Part shown: positions 26,544 through 37,509 of the stretch, one piece after another
Layout of the letters: every line of letters starts with the position of its first letter
Position numbering within the stretch: position 1 is the stretch's first letter
The notes under the pieces: model-generated
The model's database searches: none
Told to the model about the DNA's origin: nothing
Seen by the model: only the letters and a program-made list of their open reading frames with translations
Source: Rhizobium sp. Q54
GTDB taxonomy: Bacteria; Pseudomonadota; Alphaproteobacteria; SMXS01
Length of the DNA stretch: 45,226 nt
Direction of reading: 5' to 3'
NCBI GenBank assembly: GCA_945907245.1
Contig: CAMDTB010000025.1
Coordinates: 1 to 45,226, forward strand
Position numbers and translations under genes: made by a program

Positions 26544-28172
<1,629 letters not shown>

Positions 28173-28229
28173 GACGAGTGGTGAGTGCGTCGAACGCCGT
28201 TTTCAAAGGTCCGCCCCAATTCGCGCATC

Positions 28230-28259
28230 GGTATAGTCACAGACGGGTTTGGCTGGCAA
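28230..28259 (-). promoter_or_regulatory. Candidate sigma-70 promoter of pckA
   Basis: On the minus strand: TTGCCA, 18 bases, TATACC, about 58 bases ahead of the pckA start codon. Each hexamer matches 4-5 consensus positions. This is a weak but well-placed candidate. Confidence 0.35.
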
Positions 28260-28300
28260 CGAGAGAATTTACCGGATTGTGACACTACCGCTCAAAGCCC

Positions 28301-29026
28301 TTATGACGTAGGCGCAACCCGCGCTCGTTTGACCAAATCGACCAGCGCTATCCGCGCTTCCTGAGAAGACGCAACGAACGTGTCGAAAGTGAGACGCAGG
28401 CGTCTCGATCCATCGGCGATATCAAAGCCTTCCGGATCGATGCCGGTCATCCGCCAGGCACCGGGCGCCGCGCCTTTCAGCGCCGTCGCGTAGAGCGCGA
28501 TCGCATCGGCATGGTCCTCGTTCATGTGCGAAACGATGCCGGATTCCGCGTCGGCGAGCGGCGTCCACGCGGCTTCGGGCAGCAGCAATTCATCAGGCTG
28601 AATCCAGGCGATTCGTCCGAACCCGGCGACGAGGTGTGCACGCTCGACGGCAAAGCGCCACAGTCCGAAATCGGCGAAGCCGGCGTAGCGCTCGGCACCG
28701 GAATGCTGCGCAACATAACGTTCCTTCAGCCTGACGTCGTCGGATGGCCGCAGCGTGCCGAGCAGCGTCACCCTCGGGCCGTCGAGGCTGCCGCCGCCGC
28801 CATCCACCAGCAAGCTTGCGACGGGTGTTCGCCGCAGGTTCATGGTATGCTGCGCGAGACTTGAGATAAAGAAGACCGGCGCACCGCCACCATCGGCGGC
28901 GATTTCCACCAGCGACACGTAGGGTGAGCCGTCTTCCATCACGGTGCCCAAAGAGGCGTGCCGCGCGGACCGGATCAGGAACCTTGCGGCACTTCCGGCG
29001 TTAGAGGTATCTGGTTCCGTCAGCAT
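28301..29026 (-). CDS. hugZ: HugZ-like split-barrel protein (PNPOx fold with DUF2470)
   Basis: A protein of 241 residues. The N-terminal FMN-binding split barrel (about 10-150; RHASLGTVMEDGSPYVSLV, SLLVDGG) is followed by a C-terminal DUF2470 domain (SHMNEDHADAIALYA). This architecture is that of HugZ haem-degrading enzymes and related pyridoxamine-oxidase-like proteins; the MNEDH motif is typical. True haem oxygenase activity is not shown by sequence. It faces away from chvI; I see no iron-regulatory box in the 125-base gap. Confidence 0.83.
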   Translation of the reverse strand: MLTEPDTSNAGSAARFLIRSARHASLGTVMEDGSPYVSLVEIAADGGGAPVFFISSLAQHTMNLRRTPVASLLVDGGGGSLDGPRVTLLGTLRPSDDVRLKERYVAQHSGAERYAGFADFGLWRFAVERAHLVAGFGRIAWIQPDELLLPEAAWTPLADAESGIVSHMNEDHADAIALYATALKGAAPGAWRMTGIDPEGFDIADGSRRLRLTFDTFVASSQEARIALVDLVKRARVAPTS

Positions 29027-29060
29027 GAGTGAGGTGCTGCCCTTATGTGGTCACGATTGA

Positions 29061-29076
29061 TTGCAAAGGTTGCAAA
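29061..29076. promoter_or_regulatory. Direct repeat TTGCAAA upstream of chvI
   Basis: TTGCAAA-GG-TTGCAAA gives two identical heptamers 9 bases apart, placed 76 bases before the chvI start in the hugZ/chvI divergent gap. OmpR-type regulators such as ChvI bind direct repeats about one helical turn apart, so an autoregulatory site is possible; this is inference. Confidence 0.3.
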
Positions 29077-29151
29077 AGCGCGCATAACGTCAAGATTCAA
29101 GGCACTCGGCAACTGGGCTGTCCGAGCCACGGTTCGGGTTGGGGAATAGCA

Positions 29152-29847
29152 ATGGCGACAATCGCACTGGTAGATGACGACCGCAACATCCTGACCTCCG
29201 TCGGCATGGCGCTGGAGGCCGAGGGTCTGGCGGTGCGTACCTATTCCGACGGCACGACGGCGCTCGCCGCGCTGACCGCCCAGCCCGCCGATCTGGCCGT
29301 GCTCGACGTCAAGATGCCGCGCATGGACGGGATGAAGTTGCTGCAGAAGCTCCGCCGCGTCACCGACATGCCGGTGATCTTCCTCACCTCCAAGGACGAG
29401 GAGATCGACGAGGTGCTGGGCCTGAAGCTGGGCGCCGACGACTATATCCGCAAGCCGTTCTCCCAGCGGCTGCTGATCGAGCGCATCCGCGCCATCCTGC
29501 GCCGCGCCGAAGGCCGCGCGGCCGCGCCAAACAGCGACAAGGTCATGGTCCGCGGCAAGCTGGTGATGGATCCGGGCCGCCATAGCTGCACCTGGGACGA
29601 CCAGCCGGTCACGCTGACTGTCACGGAGTTCCTCATCCTGCAGGCACTGGCGACCCGTCCAGGTCACGTCAAGACGCGCGACCAGCTGATGGACGCCGCG
29701 TATGACGATCAGGTCTACGTGGACGACCGTACGATCGACAGCCACATCAAGCGGCTGCGCAAGAAATTCCGCGAGATCGACGACAACTTCTCGGGCATCG
29801 AGACGCTGTACGGCATCGGCTACCGCTACGCCGAGGAAAAGACCTGA
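29152..29847 (+). CDS. chvI: OmpR-family response regulator ChvI
   Basis: A protein of 231 residues. The receiver (1-120) has acidic pocket residues DDD 8-10, phospho-acceptor Asp52 ([11 protein letters not shown]) and the conserved Lys near IRKPF. A winged-helix DNA-binding domain follows (about 135-228; [15 protein letters not shown]). It is the partner of the adjacent ChvG kinase. In rhizobia the pair controls envelope, acid stress and exopolysaccharide genes. ATG 29152 is preceded by GGGGAA; a longer reading from 29029 has no support. Confidence 0.95.
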
Positions 29848-29871
29848 GCGTAGCGGCCGCGGAGCCGGGCG

Positions 29872-31602
29872 GTGAACTTCCGCAAATTATCCAGGCGTAG
29901 CGGAAGCCGTCCGGCGGCTTCCGCGTCGACCTATCACCGGCTCCCCTTCTCCGGTCTGACCGGCCGTATTCTCGTCCTCAACGTCATTGGTCTCGCCGTG
30001 CTCGTTGGCGGCATCCTCTATGTCAACCAGTACCGCACCGGGCTGATCGAGACCCGGCTGACGGCGTTACGCAGCCAGGCCGAGATGCTCGCCGGAGCCC
30101 TGGCGGAGACGGTCGAGAGCGAGACCGAGACCGGTGCGCTGGAGAAAGAGCGCGCCGCCGCACTGCTGCGTCGCCTGTCGGCCGACCGGACAGACCGGGT
30201 GCGGCTGTTCGAGATCGACGGCACGCTGTCCCTCGACACCCGCAAGCTCAACCCGTCAACCCAGGTCGTCACCATTCCCCTGCCGCCGCCCGGCCAGCGG
30301 GAACAGATCAGCATGGTCCAGGCGCTCTGGGAGAAATTCCGCGCCTTCTCGATCCGCACCATGTCGTCCGACCCGAACTACCCGCTCTATGAGGAACGCT
30401 ACGACCAGACCGCCGCCGACTACCCGGAGGTGCTGAAGGCGCTGACGGGCGAGCCGGACCAGATGGTGCGCGTCAAGGCCGATCGCTCGCTGGTGCTGAC
30501 CGTGGCGGTGCCCGTCGAGCATTTCCGGCATGTGCTGGGTGCGCTCCTCGTCTCGGTCGAAACCACCGAGATCGAGGAAGTGGTGCGTCAGGAACGCCTG
30601 GCCATCCTTGAGATATTCCTTGTCGCGCTGTCGGTGACGATGCTGCTGTCGTTCCTGCTCGCCGGCACCATCGCCCGGCCGGTGCAGCGGCTGGCGGCGT
30701 TCGCCCACACGGTGCGCCAGGGCCGCGGCCGGCAAGCCATCGTTCCCGACTTCTCCCGCCGGCGCGACGAGGTCGGGGATCTGTCGCGGGCGCTGCGCGA
30801 CATGACCCAGGCGCTGTACCGCCGCATCGATACCATCGAGGGCTTCGCCGCCGACGTTGCCCATGAGGTGAAGAATCCCCTGACATCGCTGCGCAGCGCG
30901 GTCGAGACCATGGAACGGACGCAGAATCCGGACCACAAGGTCAAGCTGATGCACATCATCAAGCACGACATCGACCGGCTGACCCGGCTCATCAGCGACA
31001 TCTCCAACGCCTCGCGCCTGGACGCGGAGCTGCTGCGCGCCGACATGCAGGAGATCGACGTGCCGTCGATGATGCGCGAGATCATCGGCATCTACGCCAA
31101 CCACGATGAAAAGGCCCTGTCGGGCAAGGGCGGCCGCCGGCCGCGCATCATGTTGGATGTGGAAGGCTATAACCTGGTGGTGTATGGAATCGAGAGCCAC
31201 CTGGGGCAGGTAATGCGCAACCTCATCGACAACGCGATTTCGTTCAGCCCGCCTGGCGGCGTCATCGCCATCAAGGTGCGCCGCAATCGCGACACGTTGT
31301 TCATTACCGTCGACGACGAAGGTCCCGGCATCCCCGACGAGCGGCTGGACGAGATTTTCGAGCGGTTCTATTCCGAGCGGCCCGAGGAAGAAGGCTTCGG
31401 CAGCCATTCGGGCCTGGGCCTGAACATCTCGCGCCAGATCATCGCCGTACACGACGGCTCGATCCGCGCCGAGAACCGCTACAGCCCGGAAGGTCCTGTC
31501 GGCCCGCCCATGGGCGCCCGGTTCACCATCACGTTGCCCGCCGTCGGGATGCAGCAGAAGAACCCCAAGGCGTCCGACCGGACACCGACAGAAATCGCAT
31601 GA
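29872..31602 (+). CDS. chvG: Envelope-sensing histidine kinase ChvG
   Basis: A protein of 576 residues. Membrane helices at about 33-50 and 244-266 bracket a periplasmic sensor region, followed by HAMP (267-320), HisKA with His331 (DVAHEVKNPLTSL), and an HATPase domain (NLIDNAISFSPPGG, DDEGPGIPD, GSHSGLGLNIS). It phosphorylates ChvI. The GTG start has GGAG upstream and lies 24 bases after chvI. The stop overlaps hprK by 4 bases (ATGA), so the kinase is co-translated with the phosphotransfer genes. Confidence 0.95.
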   Translation: MNFRKLSRRSGSRPAASASTYHRLPFSGLTGRILVLNVIGLAVLVGGILYVNQYRTGLIETRLTALRSQAEMLAGALAETVESETETGALEKERAAALLRRLSADRTDRVRLFEIDGTLSLDTRKLNPSTQVVTIPLPPPGQREQISMVQALWEKFRAFSIRTMSSDPNYPLYEERYDQTAADYPEVLKALTGEPDQMVRVKADRSLVLTVAVPVEHFRHVLGALLVSVETTEIEEVVRQERLAILEIFLVALSVTMLLSFLLAGTIARPVQRLAAFAHTVRQGRGRQAIVPDFSRRRDEVGDLSRALRDMTQALYRRIDTIEGFAADVAHEVKNPLTSLRSAVETMERTQNPDHKVKLMHIIKHDIDRLTRLISDISNASRLDAELLRADMQEIDVPSMMREIIGIYANHDEKALSGKGGRRPRIMLDVEGYNLVVYGIESHLGQVMRNLIDNAISFSPPGGVIAIKVRRNRDTLFITVDDEGPGIPDERLDEIFERFYSERPEEEGFGSHSGLGLNISRQIIAVHDGSIRAENRYSPEGPVGPPMGARFTITLPAVGMQQKNPKASDRTPTEIA

Positions 31603-32030
31603 CCACCATTCACGCCACCTGCGTCGACATCGACGGACTGGGGGTGCTGTTGCGAGGGCCATCGGGCTCGGGAAAGTCGGATCTGGCGCTGCGGCTGATC
31701 GATGCCGGCGCCCAGCTCGTCAGCGACGACTATACCGTTCTCGAGGTTCGCGGCGACCGACTGATCGGCACCGCGCCCCAGAGCATCAAGGGCATGCTGG
31801 AGGTCCGCGGCGTCGGCATCCTGCCGATGCCGGTGAAAGCCCGCTCGGTGATCGCCATGGTGGCCGACCTCGTCACCGACGGCGAGATCGAGCGCCTGCC
31901 CGATCCGGACGCCGCCGTGATCGACGGCGTCGTGGTCCCGAGGATACAGGTGGCGCCGTTCGAAATTTCAGCCGCCGCCAAGGTCCGCCTCGCGGCGAAG
32001 AAACACGCCCCACGGGACACCGGCACATGA
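31599..32030 (+). CDS. hprK: HPr kinase/phosphorylase, short alphaproteobacterial form
   Basis: A protein of 143 residues, only the C-terminal catalytic domain of the ~310-residue Firmicutes enzyme, as usual in Alphaproteobacteria. The P-loop GPSGSGKS covers residues 20-27, followed by LVSDDYTVLEV and VEVRGVGIL, which match the HprK signature. It phosphorylates a serine of HPr, encoded three genes downstream (Ser52), coupling the PTS phosphorylation state to regulation. ATGA overlaps occur on both sides. Confidence 0.94.
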   Translation: MTTIHATCVDIDGLGVLLRGPSGSGKSDLALRLIDAGAQLVSDDYTVLEVRGDRLIGTAPQSIKGMLEVRGVGILPMPVKARSVIAMVADLVTDGEIERLPDPDAAVIDGVVVPRIQVAPFEISAAAKVRLAAKKHAPRDTGT

Positions 32031-32953
32031 GCACCGCGCCGGCACGAACCAGGATCGTCCTGGTCACTGGTCTGTCGGGCGCCGGCCGCAGCTCGGCGCT
32101 CAAGGCGCTCGAGGATCTCGGCTACGAGGCGGTCGACAACGTGCCGTTCTCCCTGGTGCCCAACCTCGTCCAGCCCGCCGGCGACGATCCGGCCGACGAG
32201 CCCATGGGCGCGGTGGCGGTGGGCATCGACTGCCGCACCCGGGCGTTCAGCGCCGACCGGCTCGAGCGCCTGATGTCGACGTTGCGTGCCCGCGCCGACC
32301 TCGACGCCACGCTGGTCTTCCTCGACGCCAGCGACAGTGTGCTGAAGGGGCGCTTCACCGAGACCCGGCGCCGCCATCCCATGGCGGTCGACCGGCCCGT
32401 GCAGGATGGCATCGACCGGGAGCGCGAGATGCTGGCGCCGGTGCGCCAGTTCGCCGACGTGCTGATCGATACCTCCGAGCTGACTGGCCACGACCTGCGG
32501 CGGCTGATCCGCAACCAGTTCCACCTGGGCGAAACCGGTGGAATCGCCATCACGGTCGTCTCGTTTTCGTTTCCGCGCGGCCTGCCCCGTGACGCCGACA
32601 CCGTGTTCGACGTGCGCTTCCTGCGCAACCCCCACTACGTGCCCGAACTGAAGCCGCTGACCGGGCTCGACGCCGGAGTCGCGGACTACATCCGTGAGGA
32701 TCCGGAGTTCGAAGGGTTCTTCGGGCGGGTCAGCGACCTTGTCGTCAACCTGATGCCCAGCTATGTCCGGGAGGGAAAAGCCTACCTCACCATTGCGTTT
32801 GGCTGCACCGGCGGACGGCACAGGTCGGTCTTCCTCGCCGAAAGCCTCAGCAGCCTATTGCGCGACCGTGGCTTCGGGGTTACCACCGTGCACCGCGATG
32901 CCGGCGTGGAGTTGTCCGGCTCGTCGCCGCCTAGTCGTCAGGATAGCGATTAA
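32027..32953 (+). CDS. rapZ: RapZ-type RNase adapter / nucleotide-binding protein
   Basis: A protein of 308 residues. The P-loop-like GLSGAGRS (15-22) has Arg21 where most RapZ proteins have Lys, and VDNVPFSLVP follows. The C-terminal domain ends with the conserved GCTGGRHRSV. In E. coli RapZ guides RNase E to GlmZ and binds glucosamine-6-phosphate; alphaproteobacterial members sit in this hprK-EIIA-HPr cluster with an unproven role. The start overlaps hprK and the stop abuts the EIIA gene. Confidence 0.93.
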   Translation: MSTAPARTRIVLVTGLSGAGRSSALKALEDLGYEAVDNVPFSLVPNLVQPAGDDPADEPMGAVAVGIDCRTRAFSADRLERLMSTLRARADLDATLVFLDASDSVLKGRFTETRRRHPMAVDRPVQDGIDREREMLAPVRQFADVLIDTSELTGHDLRRLIRNQFHLGETGGIAITVVSFSFPRGLPRDADTVFDVRFLRNPHYVPELKPLTGLDAGVADYIREDPEFEGFFGRVSDLVVNLMPSYVREGKAYLTIAFGCTGGRHRSVFLAESLSSLLRDRGFGVTTVHRDAGVELSGSSPPSRQDSD

Positions 32954-33358
32954 ATGATCGGGTTGGTTCTCGTTACCCATGGCCGTCTGGCCGAGGAGTT
33001 CGTCGCCGCCATGGAGCATGTGGTCGGACCGCAGCGACAGGTCCAGGCGATCTCCATCGGCCCCGAGGACGACATGGAACGCCGGCGCAAGGATATCCTG
33101 GACGCCGTTGCATCGGTGGACTCGGGCAAGGGCGTCGTCCTGCTCACCGACATGTTCGGCGGCACGCCGTCCAATCTGGCCATTTCGATCATGGACAAGG
33201 CCAAGGTCGAGGTCATCGCCGGCATCAATCTGCCCATGCTCATCAAGCTCGCCAGCGTGCGCGTTTCCAGTTCCCTCGAGGACGCTGTTGCTTCCGCCCA
33301 GGAATCCGGGCGAAAATACATCAACGTCGCGTCCAAGCTGCTGACGGGTAAGGACTGA
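32954..33358 (+). CDS. Mannose-family PTS EIIA domain protein
   Basis: A protein of 134 residues of the EIIA(Man) fold, with phospho-acceptor His9 (LVLVTHGRLAEEF) and LLTDMFGGTPSN. There are no EIIB, EIIC or EIID genes nearby, so it is a regulatory phosphocarrier rather than a sugar transporter component, as in other Alphaproteobacteria. It takes phosphate from HPr, encoded directly downstream without a gap. Confidence 0.94.
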   Translation: MIGLVLVTHGRLAEEFVAAMEHVVGPQRQVQAISIGPEDDMERRRKDILDAVASVDSGKGVVLLTDMFGGTPSNLAISIMDKAKVEVIAGINLPMLIKLASVRVSSSLEDAVASAQESGRKYINVASKLLTGKD

Positions 33359-33643
33359 GTGCCGGGGGATTCTCCTCACAAGCGCGTGATGATCACCAAC
33401 CGCCGCGGGCTGCACGCCCGGGCGTCGGCGAAGTTCGTCAATCTGGCGGCCCAGTTCGACGCCACCGTCCACGTCACCGGGCCCAATGACGGCGAGAAGG
33501 TCGTGGGCACGTCGATCATGGGTTTGATGATGCTGGCCGCCGGTCCGGGCTCCAGCATCTGCATCGAGGCAAGCGGCCCGCAGGCGCGCGAAGCGCTCAA
33601 CGCCTTGGCATCATTGGTGGAAGCCAAGTTCGACGAGGATTGA
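33359..33643 (+). CDS. ptsH: Phosphocarrier protein HPr
   Basis: A protein of 94 residues with a GTG start. His19 (RRGLHARAS) receives phosphate from EI. Ser52 (GTSIMGLMML) is the site for HprK. Both sites are intact, so HPr could integrate PEP-dependent and ATP-dependent signals. No ptsI (EI) or ptsP is within the window; in many Alphaproteobacteria it lies elsewhere. It starts right after the EIIA stop and ends the operon. Confidence 0.95.
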   Translation: MPGDSPHKRVMITNRRGLHARASAKFVNLAAQFDATVHVTGPNDGEKVVGTSIMGLMMLAAGPGSSICIEASGPQAREALNALASLVEAKFDED

Positions 33644-33671
33644 TCGCCGAGTCGAAATTAAGATAGAAATA

Positions 33672-33689
33672 TATAAAGATATCTTTATA
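33672..33689. promoter_or_regulatory. Perfect 18-bp palindrome over the putative ahcY promoter
   Basis: TATAAAGAT-ATCTTTATA is a perfect palindrome in an AT-rich island, 60 bases before the ahcY start codon. A -10-like TATACT (33686-33691) overlaps its right arm. ArsR-family SahR regulators, which respond to S-adenosylhomocysteine, control ahcY in several Proteobacteria through AT-rich palindromes, so this is a candidate operator. No such regulator is encoded in the window. Confidence 0.6.
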
Positions 33690-33701
33690 CTTGCCGCCGC
33701 A

Positions 33702-33716
33702 CCGGACATCGTCCGG
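33702..33716 (+). other. Small hairpin in the ahcY leader
   Basis: CCGGAC-ATC-GTCCGG lies 13 bases after the palindrome and 33 bases before the start codon. It could be a leader stem, or a terminator stem for the ptsH transcript, although it has no U-tract. It does not match the SAH riboswitch. Confidence 0.4.
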
Positions 33717-33748
33717 CGCGCTCCCCGTGTTATGATGGCAGGACACCG

Positions 33749-35044
33749 ATGAACGCGTTTTCCGATTTCAAAGTAGCCGATATGTCGCTGGCGCCCTGGG
33801 GCCGCCGGGAAATCACCATCGCCGAGACCGAGATGCCGGGCCTGATGGCGCTGCGCAAGGAATATGGCGCCAGCCAGCCGCTGGCGGGCGCGCGGATCGC
33901 CGGCTGCCTGCACATGACCATCCAGACCGCCGTACTGATCGAGACGCTGACGGCGCTGGGCGCCGAGATCCGCTGGAGCTCGTGCAACATCTTCTCGACC
34001 CAGGACCAGGCCGCCGCCGCCATCGCCGCCGCTGGCGTGCCGGTGTTCGCGTGGAAAGGCCTGACCGAGACCGAATTCGACTGGTGCATCGAGCAAACCA
34101 TCCTGGGCCCGGACGGCTGGCGTCCGAACATGATCCTCGATGACGGCGGCGACCTGACCGCCATGATGATGAACAGGTTCCCCGAGCTGATGCTCGAGGT
34201 CCGCGGCATCTCGGAGGAGACCACCACGGGCGTGCTGCGCCTCTACCAGATCGAGAAGCAGGGTGGCCTTCCCGTCCCCTGCATCAACGTCAACGACTCC
34301 GTCACCAAGTCGAAGTTCGACAACCTCTATGGCTGCCGCGAGAGCCTGATCGACGGCATCAAACGCGCCACCGACGTCATGCTGGCCGGCAAGGTCGCCG
34401 TGGTCGCCGGCTATGGCGACGTGGGCAAGGGCTGCGCCGCCAGCCTGCGCGGCCAGGGCGCGCGCGTGCTGATCACCGAGATCGACCCGATCTGCGCGCT
34501 GCAGGCGGCCATGGAAGGCTACCAGGTCGTGACCATGGACGAGGCCGCCTCGTTCGGCGACATCTTCGTCACCGCCACCGGCAACATCGACATCATCACG
34601 CTCGACCACATGCACGAGATGAAGGACAGGGCGATCGTCTGCAACATCGGCCACTTCGACAGCGAGATCCAGGTGGCGCGCCTGCACAACTACTCGTGGC
34701 ACGAGGTCAAGCCGCAGGTCGACGAGATCGAGTTCCCCAACGGCAAGCGCATCATCCTGCTGGCCAAGGGCCGCCTGGTGAATCTGGGCTGCGCCACCGG
34801 CCACCCCAGCTTCGTGATGAGCACCTCGTTCACCAACCAGGTGATCGCGCAGATCGAGCTGTGGCAGAACCACGAGAACTACGAGAAGAAGGTCTACGTC
34901 CTGCCCAAGCACCTGGACGAGAAGGTCGCCCGCCTGCACCTGGCGCGCCTGAACGCCAAGCTCACCGTGCTGAAGCCCGACCAGGCGTCCTACATTGGCG
35001 TCACGCCGCAGGGCCCGTACAAGGCGGACCATTACCGCTACTAG
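33749..35044 (+). CDS. ahcY: S-adenosylhomocysteine hydrolase
   Basis: A protein of 431 residues, slightly shorter than the usual 465-residue alphaproteobacterial form but aligned over the key regions. [17 protein letters not shown] is the substrate-side motif, and [21 protein letters not shown] precedes the NAD-binding [10 protein letters not shown]; the C-terminus ends in the family-typical KADHYRY. It cleaves SAH to adenosine and homocysteine, relieving product inhibition of methyltransferases. Its position after ptsH is conserved in Alphaproteobacteria. Confidence 0.97.
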
Positions 35045-35127
35045 GTTTTCCGGCATCCCGGAACGGCAGCCCCCGCCTCGCGCGGGGGTATTCGTTTGAG
35101 TTTGCCCTCGGCCATCGCCCCATACAC

Positions 35128-35235
35128 CAGCCGTCATCCCGGCGAAGGCCGGGACCCAGTCCCCTACAAAAAAGCCGGCGCGAAGCGCGCCTTACTGCCA
35201 AGTCTGGGTCCCGGCCTTCGCCGGGATGACGGCTG
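35128..35235. repeat. Palindromic intergenic repeat, family A copy 1
   Basis: Perfect 32-bp arms (35128-35159 and 35204-35235) surround a 44-base centre, which itself has a GGCGCG-AAG-CGCGCC hairpin. The arm core CCCGGCGAAGGCCGGGA shares its layout with the repeat at 37533. It would form a cruciform in DNA or a strong RNA stem. It lies between ahcY and tsaE and may separate their transcripts. Confidence 0.88.
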
Positions 35236-35285
35236 AGGGTGTGGCCGTGCTAGCGCGAAAACTCGAACCGAACTACAACATCTAG

Positions 35286-35753
35286 ATGCTGACGGTCGAC
35301 CTTCCCGACATCGACACCACCGCGCGCATCGCGTCGACGCTGGCGCCGCTGCTGCGCGCCGGCGACGTCGTCGCGCTCGAAGGCGACCTGGGCGCGGGCA
35401 AGACCGCCTTCGCCCGGTTCCTGATTCAGGCGCTGGGCGTCGAGGACGAGGTACCCAGCCCGACCTTCACGCTGGTGCAGACCTATCCGGTCGACCGCCG
35501 GGATTTCGACGCCGTCTGGCACTTCGACCTCTACCGCATCGAGGACCCGGACGAGATCGACGAGCTGGGCATGGACGAGGCGTTCGACACCGGCGTCACC
35601 CTGATCGAGTGGCCGGCGCGCATGGGCGGAAGATTGCCCGCCGACAGGCTTTCCATCGGGCTGGGTTTGGTGGAGGATCGGCGCAGCATGACACTGTCCG
35701 GCGGCCCGTCATGGACCGGCCGCCTCCAGCAAATCGGAGACCAGCTGAGTTGA
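35286..35753 (+). CDS. tsaE: tRNA threonylcarbamoyladenosine biosynthesis ATPase TsaE
   Basis: A protein of 155 residues. Walker A GDLGAGKT (33-40) is followed by PSPTFTLVQTY and the Walker B-like HFDLYRI, all YjeE/TsaE hallmarks. It cycles the TsaBD complex during t6A37 modification of tRNAs. The start ATG 35286 lacks an evident ribosome site, and the stop overlaps the TTG of amgK. Confidence 0.94.
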   Translation: MLTVDLPDIDTTARIASTLAPLLRAGDVVALEGDLGAGKTAFARFLIQALGVEDEVPSPTFTLVQTYPVDRRDFDAVWHFDLYRIEDPDEIDELGMDEAFDTGVTLIEWPARMGGRLPADRLSIGLGLVEDRRSMTLSGGPSWTGRLQQIGDQLS

Positions 35754-36778: not shown

Positions 36779-37509
36779 CCGCCGTGCCGCAAAAAGCCAT
36801 GGTGATGGCGGCTGGGCTCGGCCTGCGCATGCGGCCGCTGACCGAGAACAAGCCCAAGCCGCTGATCGACGTCGGAGGCAAGACGCTGGTCGACTGGGCC
36901 CTCGACGCCCTCGCCCGGGCCGAGGTGCCCGAAGCGGTGGTGAACCACCACTACCTGGGCAGCCAGGTGATCGACCATCTGTCACGGCGGCCTGCCGCGC
37001 CGCGCATCACCCTCTCCGACGAGTCCGACCTGCTGCTGGAGACCGGCGGCGGCGTTGTGAAGGCGCTGCCGCTGCTGGGCGACGCGCCGTTCTACGTCAT
37101 CAACGCCGACGTGGTCTGGACCGACGGCCGCGACGATACGCTGAGGCGCATGGCCGCCGCGTGGGACCCCGAGCGCATGGACGCGCTGCTGCTGGTGGCG
37201 CCCAAGACCCGCGCCATCGGCTTCGACGGCCCGGGCGACTTCTTCCTCGACCCGGACGGCACGCTGCGCCGGCGCGCGCCGGCGCCGGAATCGCCCTGGG
37301 TGTATTGCGGCGTCCAGATCGTCGCGCCGCAGCTGTTCCGCGATGCACCGGAAGGCCCATTCTCGACCAACGTGGTGTGGGACCGCGCCCGGGCCGAGGG
37401 CCGCCTGTTCGGTATCGAGCACGACGGCTGGTGGCTCCACATCGGCAGCCCCCACGGCCGCGACAAGGCGGAAGCATTCCTGCGCGAGCTTTGCCATAGT
37501 GAGGCATGA
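36775..37509 (+). CDS. murU: MurNAc-1-phosphate uridylyltransferase MurU
   Basis: A protein of 244 residues. The nucleotidyltransferase signature MAAGLGLRMRPLTENKPKPL is at 11-30, with ETGGGVVKAL and the metal-binding Asp in FYVINADVVW. It makes UDP-MurNAc from MurNAc-1-P, bypassing de novo synthesis and so conferring intrinsic fosfomycin tolerance in organisms with the pathway. The ATGA overlap with amgK confirms a working pair. Confidence 0.92.
   Translation: MTAVPQKAMVMAAGLGLRMRPLTENKPKPLIDVGGKTLVDWALDALARAEVPEAVVNHHYLGSQVIDHLSRRPAAPRITLSDESDLLLETGGGVVKALPLLGDAPFYVINADVVWTDGRDDTLRRMAAAWDPERMDALLLVAPKTRAIGFDGPGDFFLDPDGTLRRRAPAPESPWVYCGVQIVAPQLFRDAPEGPFSTNVVWDRARAEGRLFGIEHDGWWLHIGSPHGRDKAEAFLRELCHSEA

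Follow-up and report, generated by a model that had tools for sequence, protein, structure and literature searches.

The gene ahcY, which encodes S-adenosylhomocysteine (SAH) hydrolase, the enzyme that clears this waste product of methylation, is preceded in Rhizobium sp. Q54 by an AT-rich palindrome, and the question raised by this locus is what acts through it. The window, by which we mean the whole 45,226-nucleotide stretch of DNA analysed, had been described in a sequence-only reading as carrying a control region in which an ArsR-type SahR repressor might switch ahcY in response to SAH. Novichkov et al. 2014 is said to be the founding SahR paper. SahR belongs to the ArsR family, as stated in the available part of PMC5343134, and the accessible portions of PMC4239095 (Leyn et al. 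2014) describe it as a SAH-responsive regulator of alpha-, delta- and some gammaproteobacteria that uses a 20-bp palindrome and has sahR, ahcY, metH, metF and metK as its core regulon. Table 1 of that source, as far as its flattened columns can be followed, seems to assign SahR to 7 of 9 Rhodospirillales genomes.

The palindrome upstream of ahcY

The 105-bp gap between the end of ptsH at 33643 and the start of ahcY at 33749 contains TATAAAGATATCTTTATA at 33672-33689 (Table 1). It is indeed a perfect 18-bp palindrome, occurs once in the window, and has no match at up to three mismatches in shuffled sequence (n = 100). Perfect palindromes of at least 18 bp are not rare as such, with three in the window against 0.6 expected from a Markov model; AT-rich ones of this length are found in none of 40 simulated windows. 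The AT-rich island that had been described within a GC-rich region is also there, with a G+C content of 0.30 at 33650-33699 and 0.66 for the whole window, and TATACT does lie over the right end of the palindrome. The predicted 20-mer operator, ATATAAAGATATCTTTATAC, has one mismatch to the degenerate 20-mer built in this analysis. Elsewhere in the window, at 37266-37285, is a 20-bp perfect palindrome consisting of G and C only, probably a product of chance at this G+C content.

Table 1. Features of the ahcY locus, in window coordinates
Feature	Positions	Strand	Basis
ptsH (HPr), gene immediately upstream of ahcY	33359..33643	+	profile match
putative -35 box TAGAAA of ahcY	33664..33669	+	consensus match only, p 0.02-0.055
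predicted SahR operator, 20 bp	33671..33690	.	perfect palindrome 33672-33689; kept in relatives
putative -10 box TATACT of ahcY, overlapping the operator	33686..33691	+	consensus match
CTTGCC, at the place of the -35 box of ahcY in many other alphaproteobacteria	33690..33695	+	sequence comparison
GC-rich leader hairpin, no T-run after it, role doubtful	33698..33720	+	inverted repeat 33698-33707 / 33711-33720
likely ribosome-binding site AGGA of ahcY	33740..33743	+	sequence; kept in genus
ahcY, S-adenosylhomocysteine hydrolase, 431 aa	33749..35044	+	TIGR00936, 634.6 bits, cut-off 497.6

Further copies in the genome

We searched the genome (3,339,118 bases, 3.34 Mb, in 136 contigs; 98% complete) with the 16-bp core of the palindrome. 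At up to three mismatches the core lies in three places: before ahcY with no mismatch, and at C57:2431 and C76:2253 with one each. The control, which is the core pattern read backwards, matches twice when three mismatches are allowed and not at all when the limit is two. Because the control is nearly as frequent as the motif at the looser setting (two against three), the evidence lies only in how closely the three sites match and where they are. The degenerate 20-mer recovers the same three sites at one to two mismatches and one more at three, making four places at up to three mismatches against one to two for its control.

The positions of the two further sites are those of SAM-cycle genes. 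The site at C57:2431 lies in front of metK, and the one at C76:2253 (L003 1501-1516) starts 57 nt ahead of the conserved start of a gene for a 322-aa ArsR-methyltransferase-like regulator. Directly downstream of the regulator gene is metF, and the contig then ends inside a reading frame that, by reading of its sequence, appears to begin like metH; the order regulator-metF-metH is complete in G002, of the same genus, and in G007, of genus g2 in the same family. The expectation of copies before metH, metF and metK was thus correct for metK, which has its own site, and not for metF and metH, which have no site of their own in this genome and lie downstream of the regulator gene as its operon. The expected ArsR-family gene with a copy in its own promoter exists as well: its copy has one mismatch, and the gene heads the operon with metF and metH. 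All core targets of SahR are therefore accounted for, ahcY and metK by their own sites and metF and metH via the operon of the regulator, and these three predicted sites at SAM-cycle genes are the layout of a SahR regulon. The gene just ahead of metK, oriented like it, encodes a Cro/C1-type HTH protein (L002 1631-2023, G000:C57), and the SahR-type site falls in the gap between the two.

A regulator with a methyltransferase-like domain

The regulator matches HTH_5 (ArsR) with 53.9 bits (cut-off 22), Methyltransf_11 with 80.7 bits (cut-off 21.2) and the ArsR/SmtB subfamily NF033788 with 80 bits (cut-off 55). An alignment of 28 orthologues keeps QSQPR.SRHLK, in the winged-helix domain, and D.GTG.G without exception; the latter we take to be the usual SAM-binding motif. 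The predicted structure has a mean pLDDT of 90.6, and its C-terminal domain has a class I methyltransferase fold. In a structure search the best match is 1vl5 (Z 23.4, rmsd 1.5, 174 aligned), and many of the entries ranked below it have SAH bound. This fold match of the methyltransferase domain and the SAH-bound entries among the structure matches make a SAM- or SAH-type ligand plausible for the modelled protein. Among the best 60 of 65 sequences of solved structures, none aligns over both parts in its best stretch: each covers the ArsR part or the methyltransferase part. A limited literature search for ArsR proteins fused to a methyltransferase domain gave no papers.

Site and regulator across relatives

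We surveyed 60 relatives, and ahcY was found in 50 of them. The core has a match at up to two mismatches in 48 of the 60, a count that alone says little, since the control pattern matches just as often as the motif in the AT-rich relatives. The picture is sharper close to home: the ten genomes of the same family have two to four places each, against one control place in one genome, and in all seven genomes of the genus every listed place is, judged by coordinates, an ahcY, metK or regulator site. Orthologues of the regulator (at least 189 bits) are present in 35 of the 60 relatives, one of them as a fragment at a contig end; among the matches listed, other regulator matches reach at most 57 bits, except for a second fragment in G016.

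Upstream regions of ahcY were taken from 48 genomes, 34 with the regulator and 14, many of them AT-rich, without it. A site before ahcY with at least 13 of 16 letters is present in 27 of the 34 and in none of the 14; the Fisher p of 2.4e-7 is too small, because related genomes are counted singly, and the 13/16 threshold was chosen after seeing the table, in which the best score without a regulator is 12/16. This comparison leaves out G041 and G053, whose ahcY genes lie at contig ends, and a second, site-less ahcY gene of G010; G006 has the regulator and no ahcY match. No operator was found before ahcY in seven of the genomes with the regulator (L053, L051, L054, L060, L057, L098 and L103). In a list of 80 loci, 21 of the 41 tested have a site of at least 13/16, and five Azospirillum and Inquilinus limosus are among the named organisms in which ahcY is preceded by the element. 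Uniqueness in the genome together with a lack of conservation before ahcY in relatives had been named as what would refute SahR control; the palindrome shows neither.

All 30 regulator genes examined, of 35, have a site of at least 12/16 in their own promoter, beginning within 130 nt of the start, each with p <= 0.01 against Markov shuffles. For metK, of which 30 of 53 genes were examined, a site is present in ten (7/7 genomes of the genus, G008, G009 and G010), and outside the family in 1 of 20 genomes. In an alignment of nine family genomes the flanks of the ahcY operator drift and the operator stays. We give hardly any credence to the reading of the palindrome as a plain AT-rich promoter with no dedicated regulator, which would account for the overlap with a -10-like box but not for a 16-mer core of which distant genomes keep 13 to 16 letters and whose presence tracks that of the regulator gene.

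The copies at metK and at the regulator, and the conservation before ahcY in step with the regulator, support ArsR-type SahR control through the AT-rich palindrome, and the palindrome is very probably the operator of a SahR-type regulator.

The leader and the upstream genes

A leader hairpin had been counted as part of the control region, with an end at 33716 that cuts its 3' arm. The inverted repeat does exist and is more stable than shuffles, with a z of -3.15. However, only 3 of 9 family genomes reach a z of -2.5 or lower; elsewhere in the family the hairpin is weak or absent, and its sequence drifts, so we rejected it as an element of control that is conserved. Perhaps it is simply a stable 5' end. 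An element that acts as RNA, be it this hairpin or a SAH-sensing riboswitch, would draw on the same stability and is highly improbable in view of this poor conservation and of the Rfam models: a cmscan of 33000-35300 with E up to 1 gave no SAH or SAM riboswitch and only two unrelated sub-threshold matches. At gathering score, Rfam likewise has no element at 20 site-less ahcY loci, seven with the regulator and 13 without it (13 of the 14 genomes, L113 being left out).

The palindrome had also been suggested to separate ahcY from an upstream PTS operon. A terminator that would do so is not supported: none of the intrinsic kind appeared between ptsH and ahcY in a scan of 33300-33900. The leader of G007 (L042) has, after the ahcY operator, a hairpin CCCGC-GCGGG and then CTTTTT, which resembles an intrinsic terminator; no such hairpin was seen in the genus of the window. 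The genes ahead of ahcY, at 26544-33643, are pckA (on the opposite strand), a response regulator, a sensor kinase, HPr kinase, a RapZ-like gene, PTS EIIA and HPr, read from translations, with profile searches for EIIA, HPr and AhcY only. This gene order, from pckA to HPr, is typical of alphaproteobacteria.

Promoter position relative to the predicted operator

A consensus scan of 33300-33900 gave one promoter-like match, TAGAAA-16-TATACT, with 9 of 12 letters (0.2 expected). The two boxes flank the ahcY operator in all seven genomes of the genus (six) and of g2 (one), at a score of 9 of 12 and a p of 0.02-0.055 against shuffled flanks; in G003 the best embedded match is a different box pair of equal score. 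In these genomes the ahcY operator thus seems to lie between the -35 and -10 boxes. A different candidate for the -10 box, TATGAT at 33731-33736, was rejected because it would place the start of the transcript almost at the ATG; its letters also differ in G004 and G001.

In many other alphaproteobacteria the operator is followed closely by CTTGnn and, further on, by a TA-rich -10 box. By consensus matches scored against shuffled flanks, the order at ahcY outside the genus and g2 is operator, then -35, then -10 at 16-19 nt in 11 of 18 genomes (p <= 0.05), and metK has this order in 8 of the 10 genomes with a site (p <= 0.05; the ninth at 0.055), nine of these ten rows being from one family and seven from one genus. 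In the window's genome the metK operator is followed by TTGTTC-18-TATACA. At ahcY in the genus and g2, CTTGCC is kept in five of the seven genomes, with CTTACC and CTTGCA in the other two, and none of the seven has a -10 box 16-19 nt after it. We had doubted TATACT as the -10 box given the arrangement in relatives, and dropped the doubt on this result; since the spaced -10 is missing, CTTGCC is perhaps a relic -35 box. The position of the promoter relative to the ahcY operator seems, from these comparisons, to have moved in this lineage.

At sahR, a promoter around the operator is significant (p <= 0.05) in 4 of 29 rows, and the sahR operator may also lie inside its promoter. The promoter counts leave out ahcY sites less than 40 nt from the start (G045, G046) and sahR of G048 (12/16). 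Operators in which all eight pairs are symmetric make up 3 of 29 at sahR against 13 of 27 at ahcY. In 11 of 29 genomes the sahR operator has ATGT in place of the ATCT of the ahcY operator, which breaks the symmetry and might create a TG as in extended -10 promoters.

One operator could thus serve two geometries. At metK in the family, and in 11 of 18 other genomes at ahcY too, SahR would sit just upstream of the -35 box, centred at about -46, where it could activate; at ahcY of the genus and g2, and perhaps at sahR, the promoter would have moved by ~28 bp and left the operator between -35 and -10. We rate this combined picture as unlikely. A dual SahR in the strict sense, which represses its own operon from inside the promoter but, from a site against the -35 box that is centred at an inferred ~46 bp upstream of the start, activates metK and, in other genomes, ahcY, is decidedly improbable. 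In its favour, the operator abuts the -35 box at metK in 8/10 genomes and at ahcY in 11/18, where an activator would fit no less than a repressor. Against it, a dimer there could also block polymerase by covering the edge of the -35 box, the ahcY site of the genus itself seems to be inside the promoter, and the available part of PMC8877191 describes SahR as a predicted repressor. If SahR does act differently from the two positions, the sign or strength of ahcY control would have changed with the operator unchanged, and a promoter that shifted while its operator stayed in place, if confirmed, would offer a natural experiment on how the mode of control depends on operator position.

A probable SahR-type switch of the SAM cycle

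In the mechanism that we infer, from binding and repression to the promoter boxes, a SahR-type regulator, in which an ArsR winged helix is joined to a class I methyltransferase-like domain, would control ahcY via the palindrome. By binding the other two sites as well, the same protein would link ahcY, metK and the sahR-metF-metH operon, and with them the SAM cycle. In this genus, a ligand-free SahR dimer bound to the ahcY palindrome would cover the promoter spacer and the -10 box, shutting out RNA polymerase. As SAH builds up it would bind the methyltransferase-like domain, the repressor would release, and the ahcY product then made would remove SAH. Given a SahR operator, repression relieved by SAH is probably the mode of control; SAH as the signal is suggested by the SahR literature and by a domain of SAM/SAH-binding type. 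In Ensifer aridi, the accessible part of PMC8877191 reports, the activity of the sahR promoter is highest in a sahR deletion.

A switch of this kind has already been published, and the present one is a further case of a known kind. What it adds is a concrete SAM-cycle regulon for this alphaproteobacterial family, and a guess made from one stretch of sequence that is now backed from the genome. With the SahR regulon of Proteobacteria, as given in the available text of PMC4239095, it shares an ArsR-family regulator, a 20-bp palindrome, autoregulation and the targets ahcY, metF, metH and metK; it differs in that the ahcY promoter of this genus seemingly surrounds the operator, whose letters were compared among the present genomes only. 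The SAH riboswitch upstream of ahcY, mentioned in the same portions of PMC4239095, has the same target and the same metabolic logic, but is an RNA element, and the scan of 33000-35300 here gave no match to it. SamR of Xanthomonadales, a distant SahR homologue in that partial text, controls methionine genes including metK, like the regulon here; it differs in its 24-bp palindrome, in the SAM-cycle genes other than metK being outside its regulon, and in occurring, within that study, only in Xanthomonadales.
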